The notes under the pieces were generated by a model that was not told the DNA's origin, searched no databases, and saw nothing but the letters and a program-made list of their open reading frames with translations. The translations under genes were made by a program, and so were the position numbers. From Pirellulales bacterium (GTDB lineage: Bacteria > Planctomycetota > Planctomycetia > Pirellulales > Lacipirellulaceae), in contig JAKVCC010000003.1 in assembly GCA_022448265.1 (NCBI GenBank), forward strand, positions 186,001-250,000: DNA of 64,000 nt, written 5' to 3'. Below are positions 34,635-41,955 of the stretch, one piece after another (position 1 is the stretch's first letter; the number at the start of each line of letters is the position of its first letter).

Positions 34635-36569
34635 CTAGCGGCTACTCGCTTCATGCACAAAGTCGACTAGGTAGCGCACATTGTCCACTGGCGTTTGCTG
34701 CAACACTCCGTGGCCGAGGTTAAAAATATGGCCCGGTCTACCTGCGGCGGCGTCCAGCACTTCGGTTGCGCGAGCGGCAATCGTAGGGCGGTCGGCAAGG
34801 AGGACCAGTGGGTCGAGGTTTCCTTGCACTGCCCGGTCGTGGCCGACCGCTGTCCAGGCGGCGTCGAGTCCAATTCGCCAATCAATGCCCATGACGTGGC
34901 CGCCGGCGGCAGCCATAAGTGGCAGTAAGGTCGGGTTGCCCGTGCCAAAGTGGATCAAGGGGACCCCCGGTGTTAGGTTTGCAGCGATCGCCTTGACGTG
35001 CGGTTGCACGTAGATGCGATAATCCTCTGGCCCCAAGCAGCCGATCCAGCTATCGAACAGTTGCACGGCTTGGGCCCCAGCAGCAATCTGTGCGTTAAGG
35101 TATCGCTGAATCGATTGCGACAGTCGCTGCATCAGCTCGTGCCACGCGGAGCTTTCGCGGTACATCAGTGTTTTGGTGTGCCGAAAGTTGCGACTGCTGC
35201 CGCCTTCGATCGCATAGCTGGCCAGGGTGAACGGCGCTCCTGCAAATCCGATTAAAGGCAGCGCTTCCGGAAGATCGTGCCGCGTTTGAGCGACAGTCTC
35301 ACAAACAAATTCGAGTGCGTCGAGGTTTTCCAACTCCCGTAGGCGGTCGACATCGCGCGCCTCGCGAATTGGATTGCTGATTTTCGGCCCGTCGCCAGCA
35401 ACGAATTCCAGCTCCATGCCCATCGGTTCGAGGATCGGCAACAGATCGGAAAAAATAATCGCCGCGTCGACGCCCAGTTGGTCCACGGCAGTACACATGA
35501 CTTCGCTGCACAGATGCGGCGATTTGCAGAGCTCTAAAAATGGCGTACGATTGCGGACTGTGCGGTACTCGGCCATATAGCGGCCAGCTTGACGCATGAG
35601 CCAAATGGGTGTGTAGGGTACGGTTTCACCTCGGCAAGCGCGCATAAACACACTATTGTCGTAGGCACGTGCACGCGGATTGACCTGTTGCTGCGAGATC
35701 GGTTGTGCGGCCATTCGGCCGACCGCTCGGCGCTTGCGCTCGACGAGCGCTGCAGACGCCGCAGCCGTTTCCCGTATAAGGTGTCCCAGCTTGGGATGCG
35801 TGGGCTCGAGGTCGACGCCGATTGTGTGCTCACGCAGCTTTTCGCTGGTGGTTGGGCCAATGGATGCCACGACAACGCGGCGCAGCGCGTTGGCGACTTC
35901 TGATTTCAACGCTAGTTGCTCCGCGACCCGCAGCAAGTGAACCAATTGCTGAGCCGAAGTGAAAATTGCGATATCGATTTCGCCAGCCACCAGTCGGCGG
36001 ATGTTCTCCTCGAGGGGGCCGATATCAGTCGGTAATTCCCAGCGATAGATTGCTACCGATTCGACCAGTGCCCCGCGCGCTTCGAGCCCGGCGGTCAAGC
36101 TAACGTTGGGCAGCCCATATTCCTGTACGGCTACGACAAGATTTGCGATGGGCAGTTTTTCGTCGATCGTCGTGAGCACTTCTCGCCAGGTATTTGGTTC
36201 GGGAACACGCCATGAAGGTTCGACCCCCATTTTCCTCAGCGCCGCGGCCGGCTTGGGTCCGCGAACAACTGTTTTTATGTCGGCGAGCGCGTCAAGAAAG
36301 CGTTTGCGTGGCACATGGCGTTCGACGCGATCCAAAAGCATGCGCGTGCCAACCCCTGTGAGAAAAATCACTACGTCCACCTGGCCGGTAATGAGCCTGT
36401 TTGCAAAGTCGATGCACCTTCGGTCTTCTTTTACCGCCACCTCGCGCATCGACGGACTCACCAGTGGCACGCCCTCCATGCGCTCGATCAGGCGCTCCAT
36501 CTCTGCAGTGCGACGGCTCTCAAAGGCGGCAACACGCAGTTGTGAAAAACAGGCTGGAGAAGAAGGCAT
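34635..36569 (-). CDS. hemDE: Fused uroporphyrinogen-III synthase / uroporphyrinogen decarboxylase (HemD-HemE)
   Basis: The 644-residue product joins two consecutive haem-pathway enzymes. Residues 1 to about 270 match HemD, with RVAAFESRRTAEMERLIER and FTSAQQLVHLLRV near 203. Residues 304-644 are HemE. The HemE active site is complete by alignment with the human enzyme: R326 and R330 in WLMRQAGRY, D375 in IIFSD, Y452 in LASYAIEGG, S507 in LFDSWIG and H620 in NLGHGV. The two parts share one frame without a stop, joined by a linker of about 30 residues. HemD closes hydroxymethylbilane to uroporphyrinogen III, which HemE then decarboxylates. The HemD part is weakly conserved, as usual for that family. 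Confidence 0.9.
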   Translation of the reverse strand: MPSSPACFSQLRVAAFESRRTAEMERLIERMEGVPLVSPSMREVAVKEDRRCIDFANRLITGQVDVVIFLTGVGTRMLLDRVERHVPRKRFLDALADIKTVVRGPKPAAALRKMGVEPSWRVPEPNTWREVLTTIDEKLPIANLVVAVQEYGLPNVSLTAGLEARGALVESVAIYRWELPTDIGPLEENIRRLVAGEIDIAIFTSAQQLVHLLRVAEQLALKSEVANALRRVVVASIGPTTSEKLREHTIGVDLEPTHPKLGHLIRETAAASAALVERKRRAVGRMAAQPISQQQVNPRARAYDNSVFMRACRGETVPYTPIWLMRQAGRYMAEYRTVRNRTPFLELCKSPHLCSEVMCTAVDQLGVDAAIIFSDLLPILEPMGMELEFVAGDGPKISNPIREARDVDRLRELENLDALEFVCETVAQTRHDLPEALPLIGFAGAPFTLASYAIEGGSSRNFRHTKTLMYRESSAWHELMQRLSQSIQRYLNAQIAAGAQAVQLFDSWIGCLGPEDYRIYVQPHVKAIAANLTPGVPLIHFGTGNPTLLPLMAAAGGHVMGIDWRIGLDAAWTAVGHDRAVQGNLDPLVLLADRPTIAARATEVLDAAAGRPGHIFNLGHGVLQQTPVDNVRYLVDFVHEASSR

Positions 36570-37412: not shown

Positions 37413-38375
37413 ATGGCACGTTGTCTGCTGGCACTGGGCTCTAATCTGGGCGATCGGTGGTCAATGTTGGCCAGCGTCTGCGGGGCACTCGCCACTTTAC
37501 CCGCTTCGCAGCTCCTGGCGCGGAGCCGCTGGCATCGGACTGCTCCGATTGGGGGCCCTGGCCAGCAGGGAGAGTTTCTCAACGGTGCGGTGGTCCTCCA
37601 AACTGAGATGCGGCCCACCCAGCTAATAGCGTCGCTTCACGCAGTGGAGTCTCGTCTGGGGCGCCAGCGAGCGATTCGGTGGGATGCTCGTTTGGTCGAC
37701 ATCGATTTGTTGCTCTATGATGATCAGCAGATCGACTTGCCCCGCCTGACGGTGCCGCACCCGCGAATGACGTTTCGCCGTTTCGTCTTAGAGCCGGCGG
37801 TTGAGGTGGCCGGCTCCTGGCGACATCCCCGCGACGGCTGGACACTGAGCCGCACACTGGCCCATTTGGACCGATCGCCCTGCTGTGTGCAGCTGCACGC
37901 CGCGCAGGAGAGCTTGGCCCCTTGGCTGGCCGCAGCGCTATGTCATCGGCTAGGTGGTACTTACGATGCTCACAGCCGCTTTGGAGTGTGCCTGCGCGGT
38001 ATCTCCAGTACGGCGGGGACGTTAGAATCGGTTACCGTCGGGGGGCTGCCCGCGAATCCGGTCATCCATATTGCAGCCGGACCACCTACCAAGGGGGGGG
38101 CGTTGAAATTGCCAGCTGGAGAGCAGACATTTTGGCCCTCGCTGATGATTGTCCTAGAACCAGACTCTCCAGAGGAACTGCTAGCACGAATTGGTGACAA
38201 AAAAGAGGCTGGCCAGAAAAAAAAACAAAAAAATATTTCCCCCAATGTTCAGGAAAATTTGTGTCTTCCAGCCCCTGGTCCGAAGGCAATCATCCGTTCC
38301 AGCGACCCAGCCACCGTCGTCGCAGACGCATTTGCAGTGCTCTGCAGCGCGTGGCCCGATCTGGCTGGTGGATAG
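37413..38375 (+). CDS. folK: HPPK (FolK) with an unrecognised C-terminal extension
   Basis: The N-terminal ~150 residues are 2-amino-4-hydroxy-6-hydroxymethyldihydropteridine pyrophosphokinase: ALGSNLGDRW at 7-16, TAPIGGPGQQGEFLNGAV near 43, WDARLVDIDLLLYDD near 89 and VPHPRMTFRRFVLEPAVE near 108. FolK makes the pyrophosphorylated pterin for folate synthesis. HPPK proteins are about 160 residues; this one has 320. The extra ~170 residues include a Gly/Ala-rich domain (THIAAG-like segment VIHIAAGPPTKGG) and a lysine-rich stretch (KKEAGQKKKQKN) that I do not recognise. panC follows 155 bp later. Confidence 0.88.
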   Translation: MARCLLALGSNLGDRWSMLASVCGALATLPASQLLARSRWHRTAPIGGPGQQGEFLNGAVVLQTEMRPTQLIASLHAVESRLGRQRAIRWDARLVDIDLLLYDDQQIDLPRLTVPHPRMTFRRFVLEPAVEVAGSWRHPRDGWTLSRTLAHLDRSPCCVQLHAAQESLAPWLAAALCHRLGGTYDAHSRFGVCLRGISSTAGTLESVTVGGLPANPVIHIAAGPPTKGGALKLPAGEQTFWPSLMIVLEPDSPEELLARIGDKKEAGQKKKQKNISPNVQENLCLPAPGPKAIIRSSDPATVVADAFAVLCSAWPDLAGG

Positions 38376-38530
38376 AATGCGCCAACAACTAGTTCGCCTG
38401 TTAGTTCATATGTAAGCGCTGGCCATCTGTCGCGACCGGTAGTTGATAAAACAACTGGAAGTCAATAACAATTAGCAGTCTGGGACGTTTGGCAGACTGT
38501 GACGCCGATTCAAACCACAACTCTTATTCA

Positions 38531-39484
38531 ATGAGTATGCCGTCTCACCAAACAAAAAAACCTTTGCTCAGCGCGGGCGAACGATCTGCGCGGCGGGGCA
38601 GTGCCAACCTTAGTCGCGGTACTGAATCTGGCGCTGGCACCACGCAAGTAGTGACATCTTCTTCCAGGATGCGGCTAGCTGTACAAGCGGCCAAGACTTC
38701 GGGCAAGACCATTGGCTTTGTGCCGACGATGGGGGCTTTGCATCGAGGACATCTTTCGCTAGTGGAGGCTTCGCTGTCGCAATGCGATCAAACGGTTGTG
38801 AGTATATTTGTCAATCCTACCCAGTTCGGTCCAGACGAAGATGTTGGGCGCTATCCACGCACTCTGGACCGCGACTTGCGGTTGTTGGAAGAACTGTGCT
38901 GCCCCTGGGTCTTCGCCCCAAGTGCCTCAGAAATGTACGGAGCGCAGTTCGACACAAGCATCGATGTCGGTCCGGTTGCCGAACCTTTCGAGGGTGCAAT
39001 GCGACCTACCCATTTCCAAGGCGTCGCGACAGTAGTACTCAAGTTGTTTCAAATCGTCCCGGCCAACCACGCTTACTTCGGGCAAAAGGATTATCAGCAG
39101 TCGCTTGTTGTGAAACAACTGGCCCGCGATCTCTCTGTGCCGATCGATATTCACGTGCAGAAAATTGTACGTGAAGAAGACGGCCTGGCGTGCAGTTCGC
39201 GCAACGCGTTCTTAAGCCCTGCCGAGCGAGTTCGAGCCCGTAGCTTGTGGCAGTCGCTGCAGCTCGCTGAGCAGATGGTAGCAGCGGGCGAAAAAAGTGC
39301 TGATAAGATAATCGGCCAAATGCGAGAGCAATTGGCGAGGTGCGAAAACGTCGAGGTCGAGTATATTGCATTTTTGGAAGAGGGTACTGTTTGTGAAGTT
39401 ACCACCGTCGACCGTCGTACCGTTGTCGTCATCGCGGCCCGTTTCGGCCAAACACGATTGATCGACAACCATATTATTGGCTAA
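38531..39484 (+). CDS. panC: Pantothenate synthetase
   Basis: PanC joins pantoate and beta-alanine using ATP. From ATG 38531 the product has 317 residues; a TTG 42 bases upstream is a weaker choice. The first ~50 residues are a low-complexity Ser/Arg extension. The core has GFVPTMGALHRGHLSLVE (the HxGH-type adenylate motif), SIFVNPTQFGPDED and VANHAYFGQKDYQQ-like NHAYFGQKDYQQSLVVKQL. It overlaps the lgt frame slightly at its end. The product feeds the CoaX step encoded at 1.8 kb. Confidence 0.95.
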   Translation: MSMPSHQTKKPLLSAGERSARRGSANLSRGTESGAGTTQVVTSSSRMRLAVQAAKTSGKTIGFVPTMGALHRGHLSLVEASLSQCDQTVVSIFVNPTQFGPDEDVGRYPRTLDRDLRLLEELCCPWVFAPSASEMYGAQFDTSIDVGPVAEPFEGAMRPTHFQGVATVVLKLFQIVPANHAYFGQKDYQQSLVVKQLARDLSVPIDIHVQKIVREEDGLACSSRNAFLSPAERVRARSLWQSLQLAEQMVAAGEKSADKIIGQMREQLARCENVEVEYIAFLEEGTVCEVTTVDRRTVVVIAARFGQTRLIDNHIIG

Positions 39485-39491
39485 CGGCCCC

Positions 39492-40805
39492 ATGTGCTCC
39501 GAGTTGTTTCGAATTCCGTTGCATTGGCTGAGCATTCCGGTGTGGGATAGCGTTGCGCCTGGCGCGCTGTTGGCCGGACTCCTTTGCTGCGGAGCCATTG
39601 GGACGCTCCTGTGGGGAAAGCGAACGAATCGATCGGCCGAGGCGTGGGGCTACCTTCCAGGGTTGCTCTTGTTAGCAGCGGCGGCCGTGTTTTTGCCCAA
39701 GCTGTTCCCAGGCGGATTGCCGATTCGCGGCTATGGCGTGATGGTGCTACTGGGATCGCTGGCAGGTATCTGGCTGGCCGTGCTCCGCGCACAGCAAATG
39801 CGTCTCCACCCCGACGTTATCTTTTCGCTTGCGTTTGGCATGTTTGTCTGTGGCATAGTCGGTGCTCGACTTTTCTATGTTGTCGAGTATTGGAACCCGC
39901 GATTCCAGTTTGACGAGTGGACGAACACGCTAGTGAAAATCGTCAGTTTTACCCAGGGGGGCCTGGTCGTCTACGGTGCGCTGTTGGGTGCCACGATTGC
40001 TTTTATTGTATTTGTCCGTCGTCATCGATTGCCCGCGCTGGCGATGGCTGATCTGATTGCACCGAGTTTGCTCGTCGGCTTGGCTTTTGGGCGAATCGGC
40101 TGTTTACTTAACGGCTGCTGCTATGGGGGCGAGTCGGCTCAGTGGTGGGCAGTGACGTTTCCGACCGAGAGCGTGCTGTATCAAGAACAAGTCGTAACCG
40201 GTCGTATGCATGGTATAGAGCTGGCGTTTCCCGCGGACAAACCGTTCGCCCTGGTGGCCCAAATCGATCCGGGGTCGCCGGCGGCCCAATCAGGATTGAC
40301 CGTCGGCATGCGCATCCTTCGCTTCAATGGTGCGCCAACGCCATACGTCGATAGGGAACTCTTGCGTACGATTGACAAGCAGGTTCCCCTTGTTTTGCAA
40401 ACCGATGATGGGCAATCCATTCACCTTCCCGCACCCGATCCGCGCAGGCGTAGTTTGCCGGTGCATCCGACACAGGTTTACAGTGCCGTCAACGCGGGCT
40501 TTCTGGCGTGGATGCTTGGCACCTTCTATCCATTTCGCCGCCGTGACGGGGAGGTGGCCGCACTGATGCTTACCATCTATCCGATCTCGCGATTCTTGCT
40601 GGAAATCATCCGTACAGATGAGTCGGCCGTTTTTGGGACCGGGCTTAGTATTTCGCAGAATATTAGCTTGGTGCTGCTGGCCGGCGCGCTGGTGTTCTGG
40701 GTTTACCTCCGTCGGCAAGAGCCGGGGCGGGCCGTTTTGGCCCCACTGGGAGAACACAATACGTCGAGGAAGCCAAACGCACAGGCACCCCGTTTCCGCG
40801 AGTAG
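39492..40805 (+). CDS. lgt: Prolipoprotein diacylglyceryl transferase with an inserted PDZ-like domain
   Basis: Lgt transfers diacylglycerol to the lipobox cysteine of prolipoproteins. The product has 437 residues from ATG 39492, against about 270-300 for typical Lgt. The Lgt signature GRIGCLLNGCCYGG starts at residue 200 (R201, N207), GGLVVYGALLGA precedes it, and VHPTQVYSA and SRFLLEIIRTDE follow at 324 and near 373. Between signature and VHPTQ, residues about 252-315 form a PDZ-like domain (LVAQIDPGSPAAQSGLTVGMRILRFNG). The histidine often found in the FHGG motif is a tyrosine (VVYGA). The insertion would face the periplasm. Confidence 0.9.
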   Translation: MCSELFRIPLHWLSIPVWDSVAPGALLAGLLCCGAIGTLLWGKRTNRSAEAWGYLPGLLLLAAAAVFLPKLFPGGLPIRGYGVMVLLGSLAGIWLAVLRAQQMRLHPDVIFSLAFGMFVCGIVGARLFYVVEYWNPRFQFDEWTNTLVKIVSFTQGGLVVYGALLGATIAFIVFVRRHRLPALAMADLIAPSLLVGLAFGRIGCLLNGCCYGGESAQWWAVTFPTESVLYQEQVVTGRMHGIELAFPADKPFALVAQIDPGSPAAQSGLTVGMRILRFNGAPTPYVDRELLRTIDKQVPLVLQTDDGQSIHLPAPDPRRRSLPVHPTQVYSAVNAGFLAWMLGTFYPFRRRDGEVAALMLTIYPISRFLLEIIRTDESAVFGTGLSISQNISLVLLAGALVFWVYLRRQEPGRAVLAPLGEHNTSRKPNAQAPRFRE

Positions 40806-40845: not shown

Positions 40846-41955
40846 CTAGCCAAGCTCGACAATCGGCTGCTGCGCGCGACGTAGTTGCCCGCAGGCGGCG
40901 TCGATCTGGTCACCCTTACGGTGACGGAAACGCACCCGCAAGCCGCCTGTTTCTAGGATTTTGCGAAACTGGATCTGGCTGGCGTGGCTTGGGGTTTGAT
41001 AAGGCAGCCCGGCGACCTGGTTGTAGGGAATGACATTTAGCATTGCTTCGCGTCCGGCTAGTAATCGGGTCAACTGATGGGCCTGTTGTGGAGAATCGTT
41101 GACGCCTGCCAGGAGTACGTATTCGAATGTCATGCGCCGGCCGGATGCGTCGAAGTAGCGGTCGGCTGAGGCTAGGATAGCGTCGAGGCCAATCTTGTCG
41201 TTCACTGGTACCAGGCGGTTGCGGAGTTGGTCGTTAGGCGCGTGCAGCGAAATAGCCAGCCGATAGGACGCATTGCTGCGGGTGAGCCGATCAATGGCCG
41301 GCGGCAGGCCAACTGTGGAGATGGTGATGCGCCGCGTACTAATATCCAGTCCATCGGGGCGATGCGCTTCAGCAAGTGCAGGCAATAGCGCGTCGAGATT
41401 TGCTAGCGGTTCGCCCATGCCCATGACCACAACATGGCTGAGCCGTTCTTCACGGCGGAGCAGCAGTTGCAGCCGCAGAATCTGCTCGACGATTTCACCG
41501 GTCGTCAGATTTCGCTCGACTCCGTCTAGGCCGCTCGCGCAGAACACGCAGCCCATCCCACATCCGACTTGCGTACTGATGCAGATCGTGCGGCGGACCC
41601 GGCCGCGGAGCAGCACGCACTCAATTTGCCCGCCGTCGGCCAGTTGTAGGAGCAGCTTTTCGGTTTCGTCTGCAGCGTGGGTGTGACGCACGATTTGAGT
41701 GGTCCAGAGTTGCAAAGAGCCAGCCAGATCTGCGCGCAGCGATTTGGGCAAATCGGACATCTCCGCCCAATCAGAGGCCCGTCGTTTGAACAGCCAATGC
41801 CGCAGTTGCTGGCGGCGAAAACGCGGGAGGTTGCGCCTGGCGGACCACGCTGCGAGCGTGTCGTCAATAGAGTTCAGGAAATGTGGCGATTTGTCGATAG
41901 CCGATAGCCCAGCTAGGGCTGCGAGTTGGAAAGGATGGAAGGCAGCCAGGTGCAA
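40846..41955 (-). CDS. rlmN: Dual-specificity RNA methyltransferase RlmN
   Basis: RlmN is a radical-SAM enzyme that methylates A2503 of 23S rRNA and A37 of some tRNAs. The 369-residue product has the CxxxCxxC cluster motif (C132, C136, C139 in VGCGMGCVFCASG), the MGMGEPLANL motif and the C-terminal methyl-accepting cysteine C355 (IDAACGQLR). The N-terminal accessory domain contains FRRQQLRHWLFKRR. The best start is TTG 41955, which overlaps the end of sppA by 43 bp; no ATG or GTG start occurs before the conserved region. Confidence 0.95.
   Translation of the reverse strand: MHLAAFHPFQLAALAGLSAIDKSPHFLNSIDDTLAAWSARRNLPRFRRQQLRHWLFKRRASDWAEMSDLPKSLRADLAGSLQLWTTQIVRHTHAADETEKLLLQLADGGQIECVLLRGRVRRTICISTQVGCGMGCVFCASGLDGVERNLTTGEIVEQILRLQLLLRREERLSHVVVMGMGEPLANLDALLPALAEAHRPDGLDISTRRITISTVGLPPAIDRLTRSNASYRLAISLHAPNDQLRNRLVPVNDKIGLDAILASADRYFDASGRRMTFEYVLLAGVNDSPQQAHQLTRLLAGREAMLNVIPYNQVAGLPYQTPSHASQIQFRKILETGGLRVRFRHRKGDQIDAACGQLRRAQQPIVELG

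Follow-up and report, generated by a model that had tools for sequence, protein, structure and literature searches.

Prolipoprotein diacylglyceryl transferase (Lgt) is a membrane enzyme that moves diacylglycerol from phosphatidylglycerol onto the lipobox cysteine of preprolipoproteins. PDZ domains are modules that usually bind peptides, and their carboxylate-binding loop carries the motif X-hydrophobic-Gly-hydrophobic. The membrane core of the site-2 protease RseP is not known to be related to the Lgt core. RseP is a protease with two PDZ domains, unlike the enzyme described here, and the two share a periplasmic PDZ between two membrane helices and a membrane-embedded active site (RseP as described in passages of PMC7728848). 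The passages available from a survey of microbial PDZ proteins place 93% of them in 12 families; most of these are proteases, no lipid transferase is among them, and 7% of the proteins are unclassified (PMC6411480).

In E. coli Lgt, residues E151-P197 form the head, which faces the periplasm between TM4 and TM5 (PMC4728403, excerpts). Domain swaps in E. coli indicated that the head is important for Lgt function, and the authors hypothesized a contact between the head and the flexible preprolipoprotein linker; the protein contacts they predicted fall to arm-2, not to the head (sections of PMC13251419). The terms PDZ and Planctomycet are absent from the main text of that paper. A PDZ domain in Lgt was unreported in the titles and abstract openings that we searched, with passages of PMC6411480, PMC12419801 and PMC10632474 as the text scope; most subscription papers and all supplements lay outside this search.

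The locus lies in a 64,000-nucleotide stretch of a Pirellulales genome (GCA_022448265.1, contig JAKVCC010000003.1), which we call the window. Its Lgt carries a PDZ domain in the head, a variant of this lipid transferase found in several planctomycete groups, and the enzyme may hold a substrate or partner at a second site. A usually peptide-binding module placed exactly in the head bears on how Lgt recognizes preprolipoproteins beyond the lipobox. The features of the locus are collected in Table 1.

Table 1. Features of the lgt locus in window coordinates; residue numbers refer to the window Lgt.
Feature	Position	Strand	Basis
folK (HPPK domain), upstream of lgt	37413..38375	+	Pfam HPPK 1.4e-32
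panC (pantoate-beta-alanine ligase), directly upstream of lgt	38489..39484	+	Pfam 1.4e-96; conserved neighbour
lgt, encoding a 437-aa prolipoprotein diacylglyceryl transferase that has a PDZ domain inserted	39492..40805	+	Translation to stop; Pfam and NCBIfam profiles
N-terminal extension, residues 1-73, two extra predicted helices (25-45, 48-71) before Lgt core	39492..39710	+	Model
Lgt signature GRIGCLLNGCCYGG, residues 200-213; R201 = E. coli R143	40089..40130	+	Alignment to 5azb chain; invariant residues
Whole insert (residues 225-323), flanked by WAVTFP and VHPTQ and counting the retained head segment	40164..40460	+	
PDZ domain, residues 239-317	40206..40442	+	Pfam, relatives, AlphaFold2 model, structure searches
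Carboxylate-binding-loop-like MHGI, residues 239-242	40206..40217	+	Conservation; coincides with start of aligned DegP/DegS PDZ ranges
Second Lgt half, residues 324-405; R367 = E. coli R239, E371 = E243, R374 = R246	40461..40706	+	Alignment
rlmN-like radical SAM gene, convergent, downstream	40846..41955	-	Pfam Radical_SAM and RlmN_N

Identity of the Lgt and its Catalytic Core

The Pfam LGT profile (PF01790) matched the protein in one continuous stretch, residues 74-405, at 4.7e-54 (183.7 bits against a cut-off of 24.9), and TIGR00544 lgt exceeded its curated cut-off (126.5 against 118.9 bits). Matches to seven other, narrower NCBIfam Lgt models were below their own cut-offs. A protein search and a PF01790 profile search each returned this protein as the single Lgt of its genome. 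Judged from its sequence and model, the product is the complete Lgt of the cell and is predicted to perform diacylglyceryl transfer. The open reading frame, its coordinates and the GRIGCLLNG and HPTQ motifs are as given in the initial annotation, according to the translation of 39492-40805.

The window enzyme shares with E. coli Lgt (5azb/5azc) the core fold (VIA-align of the predicted model to 5azb: Z 21.1 over 258 residues, 3.1 Å) and the signature. In the alignment to the 5azb chain, E. coli Y26, R143, Y235 and R239 correspond to Y81, R201, Y363 and R367, and E243, R246 and D129 to E371, R374 and D187. It differs from the E. coli enzyme in the PDZ domain of the head, in two extra N-terminal helices, and in Y161, C204 and C209, which stand in place of H103, N146 and E151. 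The same kinds of swap at these three positions are seen in other Lgts (PMC13251419, in the sections available). C204, C209 and C210 (window 40101-40121, within the signature) replace E. coli N146, E151 and L152 and are invariant in alignments A1 and A2; a disulphide is possible.

A PDZ Domain in the Periplasmic Head

The initial annotation had claimed a PDZ-like insert at residues 252-315, in a region that forms periplasmic loops, and had proposed a PDZ profile search and a structure model as checks. In the window protein, PDZ_6 matched residues 255-302 (E 4e-5, 23.7 bits, curated cut-off 27) and Pfam PDZ matched residues 241-284 (E 0.0015, 19.3 bits, cut-off 23.2), so that the window protein, taken by itself, falls just short of both curated cut-offs. 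Relatives make the assignment secure: of 60 Lgts in an alignment that includes PDZ-less ones, 28 matched PDZ_6 and 25 matched PDZ at E ≤ 0.01, with a best value of 4.7e-13. The PDZ_6 cut-off was exceeded by L189, L203, L217, L222 and L223, with L219 below it, and L189, from Gemmataceae, was over the cut-offs of PDZ_6, PDZ_2 and PDZ.

The AlphaFold2 model of the Lgt, built from an alignment of 60 sequences (the window protein and 59 loci of one genome scan), had a mean pLDDT of 91.2 and a pTM of 0.87. Ten-residue blocks across residues 221-320 scored 89-98; the region is thus modelled as folded and not as the unfolded loop that the initial annotation had considered. The secondary structure elements follow the PDZ order (strands at 242-245 and 253-258, helix 263-266, strand 274-278, helix 283-296, strands at 300-304 and 309-312). 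Foldseek on the model returned 5azb first (1.1e-9), followed by HtrA2, CtpA and DegP at E 0.006 and above. With VIA-align, which re-aligns only the matches of Foldseek itself, residues ~239-317 gave Z 8.3-9.8 at 2.0-4.1 Å to a list of mostly HtrA-type PDZ domains (DegP, DegQ, DegS). The domain shares with these PDZ domains the fold (Z ~9, ~78 residues) and the loop form hydrophobic-x-Gly-hydrophobic; in contrast to the HtrA family, it is joined to a lipid transferase rather than a protease and is inserted in a loop of a membrane enzyme.

Since the E. coli head lies on the periplasmic side between TM4 and TM5, the PDZ domain of the window enzyme sits in the head. Sequence profiles and the structure model together confirm that this Lgt carries a genuine PDZ domain in its predicted periplasmic head, between GRIGCLLNG and HPTQ. 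The proposed insert was therefore borne out by Pfam (relatives included), by the model and by the correspondence with the E. coli head, but its limits needed correction: the domain spans residues ~239-317 and opens with the loop MHGI (239-242).

The peptide loop was examined in 129 PDZ inserts, of which 123 were aligned at positions 241-242. Within these, residue 241 is glycine in 98% and residue 242 is hydrophobic in 100%; no other single residue of the domain is as well conserved as G241. Positions 275, 278, 300 and 302 are hydrophobic in 100% of the PDZ inserts; the GSPAA-GL-G loop is less well conserved (G268 in 86%, G272 in 87%). Position 240 is hydrophobic in 70% of the inserts and is His in the window protein, where the second position of the motif is accordingly not hydrophobic. 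A glycine equivalent to G241 was present in three of the 31 placeable PDZ-less rows with short heads, all three from PDZ-less relatives of the same genus (two mis-registered rows were corrected by eye). G237 and the hydrophobic residue at 239 prove nothing, because they are also seen in PDZ-less Lgts. Because the glycine of the carboxylate loop is the most conserved residue of the domain, the alignment suggests a peptide groove in working state, although G241 could be kept for folding instead of ligand binding. The domain diverges faster than the enzyme around it, with a mean pair identity of 25% against 57% for the core (171 pairs, 19 sequences). Some inserts, such as L140 (Botrimarina hoheduenensis) and L028, gave no Pfam PDZ signal and have lost the GSPAA loop; a model of L140 was still PDZ-like in arrangement, with a best PDZ Z of 7.2 to Deg9, a weak value.

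Distribution, Losses and Origin

The distribution was read within Planctomycetota. Inserts were examined in 59 genomes (the window's own and others of its genus, family and order), 57 of which had an Lgt match. The PDZ domain was present in 51 of these 57 and absent in six; it is thus not missing from all close relatives, which the initial annotation had named as a refutation. The script labelled 48 of the 51; the other three were assigned manually, as G003 has a broken frame, G048 a broken contig, and G013 is a fragment with only the end of the domain. In the genus, 10/14 genomes carry the PDZ, with G004, G005, G006 and G012 lacking it. All 20 genomes with an Lgt match in the rest of the family have it, and so do 21/23 from the order's other families, G041 and G058 being the exceptions. 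Named PDZ-bearing relatives include Lacipirellula, Botrimarina and Rhodopirellula. Beyond the order but in the same class, the PDZ was found in Gemmataceae and in the families coded f80, f81 and f82; two of the three loci fetched from f80 (L220, L221) hold a different insert, and the f21 and f78 rows that were read are short-headed. In other planctomycete classes, rows with a junction had short heads or non-PDZ inserts, with one weak match (L085) as the exception.

These labels come from a non-random set of 247 loci with an Lgt frame, which contains duplicates (e.g., L008/L129, L113/L139, L037/L094, L046/L079). One scan of genome contigs for Lgt contributed its best 80 loci. An insert was obtained from 238 loci: 129 PDZ, 76 short, 32 other and one weak (L085). 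Four of the short labels (L029, L184, L202, L216) were failures of the junction finder, and all of these except L202 have a PDZ match. Nine loci were without a junction. A PDZ match was present in L128, L209, L212 and L213; L180 contained only the start of the domain at a contig end, L126 matched the domain end weakly, and L088, L095 and L204 had no PDZ match.

Trees were built from the core without the insert, with SH-aLRT support only. The first omitted most Gemmataceae rows; the second, with 55 near-duplicates, nine gappy rows and the weak row removed, contained cysteine-type Lgts and eight others. In the core trees, the PDZ-less f7 group, the pair G005/G006 and G012 were placed inside the PDZ-bearing clade. 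This nesting is most simply read as at least three losses of the PDZ within the clade. Changes of state numbered five over the first tree and six over the second, in which deep branches are weak. One Lgt that clusters with the PDZ-less f7 rows of the window's order (L193) comes from a record under the title Candidatus Kuenenia stuttgartiensis, which is perhaps mislabelled or misbinned.

The PDZ is inserted at the same place in Pirellulales and in the Gemmataceae group, and a profile of 115 Pirellulales inserts recovered 14/14 inserts of that group. With this profile, however, a protein of the window's own genome that is HtrA-like by eye (L299) outscored the Gemmataceae-group inserts, so a single origin of the insert is not proved.

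Gene Neighbourhood and Lipoprotein Pathway

The position of lgt after folK and panC had been taken as unusual. The gene order itself is as described, but panC-lgt is common among relatives: at 64 PDZ-bearing loci, panC is encoded on the same strand no more than 3 kb upstream, and 82 such loci had at least 900 bases upstream (duplicates included). With panC upstream of lgt in most relatives examined, this context is ordinary for the group. Elsewhere in the window, a 644-residue frame on the minus strand (34635-36569) fuses HemD (HEM4) and HemE (URO-D) domains.

Lnt was over its cut-off in 13/14 genomes of the genus, the window's own included. LspA was matched in 12/14, over the curated cut-off in only two; the match in the window's own genome is below it. 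On these profile matches, the lipoprotein pathway appears complete in that genome. A link between the insertion and a lipoprotein feature had been suggested, and the presence of Lnt and LspA across the 14 genomes does not follow the PDZ: the PDZ-less G004, G006 and G012 have both, the PDZ-less G005 has Lnt and no LspA match, and the PDZ-bearing G002 has no LspA match either.

A separate protein with a single PDZ (PDZ_2 46.9 bits, ~335-400 residues, N-terminal hydrophobic segment by eye) was detected in 13/14 genomes of the genus (e.g., G011:C46:36995-37999; G006:C1:5978109-5979110) and had no match in the window's own genome (G000, 97.3% complete). In 12 of the 13 congeners having it, the gene lies within ~2 kb downstream of lgt on the same strand, a link of lgt to a lineage-specific, probably exported factor. 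It occurs beside lgt genes with or without a PDZ in the Lgt.

Possible Roles of the PDZ Domain

Our preferred reading, tentative at a probability of roughly 0.4, is that the PDZ serves as an auxiliary docking site for the preprolipoprotein, or for a client or partner, beside the catalytic cavity. The periplasmic head of this Lgt is enlarged by an HtrA-type PDZ with an intact-looking peptide loop. After export, the PDZ would bind an extended stretch from the mature part of the preprolipoprotein, or else a client's exposed strand or tail, and would hold the substrate as the signal peptide enters the cleft. Such docking would raise the efficiency or selectivity of lipidation. The PDZ is accessory, because same-genus relatives without it keep the catalytic core. 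The six PDZ-less genomes among the 57, and the inserts of L140 and L028 without the GSPAA loop, count against docking. Close relatives without the PDZ provide natural enzyme pairs that make its role testable, and a PDZ groove could offer inhibitors a point of attack on an enzyme whose pathway is widely essential.

The simplest version of docking, in which the PDZ reads hydrophobic C-termini of lipoproteins, was unsupported. We applied our own signal-peptide and lipobox scan to 61 pieces of the window's genome, the window included (1,258,449 bases with overlap counted twice, about a third of the genome). In this crude scan, which gave 29 candidate lipoproteins, some visibly false, a hydrophobic C-terminal residue was not enriched: it ended 7/29 predicted lipoproteins against 39/149 other predicted secreted proteins, and 267/700 other proteins without membrane segments. 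Fewer pieces, scanned more strictly, gave four candidates in this genome and six in the PDZ-less G006, none with a hydrophobic end; the looser scan of G006 gave eight candidates, also with none, too few for comparison. Substrate recognition, in the form of hydrophobic lipoprotein C-termini, thus found no support in the crude scan. It is also conceivable, if somewhat unlikely, that the PDZ provides a second signal, reading part of the mature lipoprotein and making substrate choice depend on more than the lipobox, with relaxed choice in lineages that lost the domain.

By analogy with RseP, the PDZ might instead bind no peptide and lie as a gate over the membrane-embedded site, limiting entry, for example, to extended and not folded preprolipoproteins; we consider this unlikely. 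The tandem of periplasmic PDZ domains in RseP is a size-exclusion filter over the intramembrane site (passages of PMC7728848), and the PDZ of the window enzyme likewise falls between a pair of membrane helices, on the side facing the periplasm in E. coli Lgt. The PDZ-like fold modelled for L140, despite the loss of its GSPAA loop, would also suit a role of bulk. The strict conservation of the loop glycine argues otherwise, as a pure spacer has no need of it unless folding demands it. Just as doubtful is a scaffold role, in which a partner protein (export machinery, LspA, Lnt or a secreted helper), and not the substrate, is what the PDZ binds. The separate PDZ protein downstream of lgt in 12/13 congeners would fit such a scaffold, but it also lies near the PDZ-less lgt genes of G004, G005, G006 and G012 and is unmatched in the window's own genome, and PDZ-less genomes of the genus also have Lnt (4/4) and LspA (3/4). 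Least probable is neutral growth of a head that accommodates insertions, with the PDZ as a passenger of at most structural use: the 32 rows with non-PDZ inserts at the same site, the losses of the PDZ and its low identity are in keeping with this. Against it speak the presence of the PDZ in 51/57 genomes of the order, its occurrence in other families of the class and the near-invariance of its loop glycine.

Other Variants of the Lgt Architecture

Insertions recur at one site of the Lgt head, which makes it a hot spot for growth. Non-PDZ inserts of 54-130 residues make up the 32 rows labelled other, mostly from other planctomycete classes (including L061-L066, L071-L080, L188, L195 and L196), with L220 and L221 from the same class; they share the place of insertion with the window enzyme and differ in an inserted sequence without a PDZ match.

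The N-terminal extension was found in 59/59 PDZ-labelled and seven PDZ-less rows of order genomes, and is missing from most Gemmataceae and f80-f82 rows and from six short second copies in the order. As most rows of the Gemmataceae group lack them, the N-terminal helices are independent of the PDZ. By eye, the two helices may partly repeat the first arm and helix. The short second copies are Lgt-like proteins of some order genomes (L241-L244, L247, L248), with frames of 253-322 residues and no insert. Longer PDZ-matching inserts, of 141-190 residues, occur in five planctomycete Lgts (L161, L163, L167, L179 and L187), one of them from a goat duodenum record.
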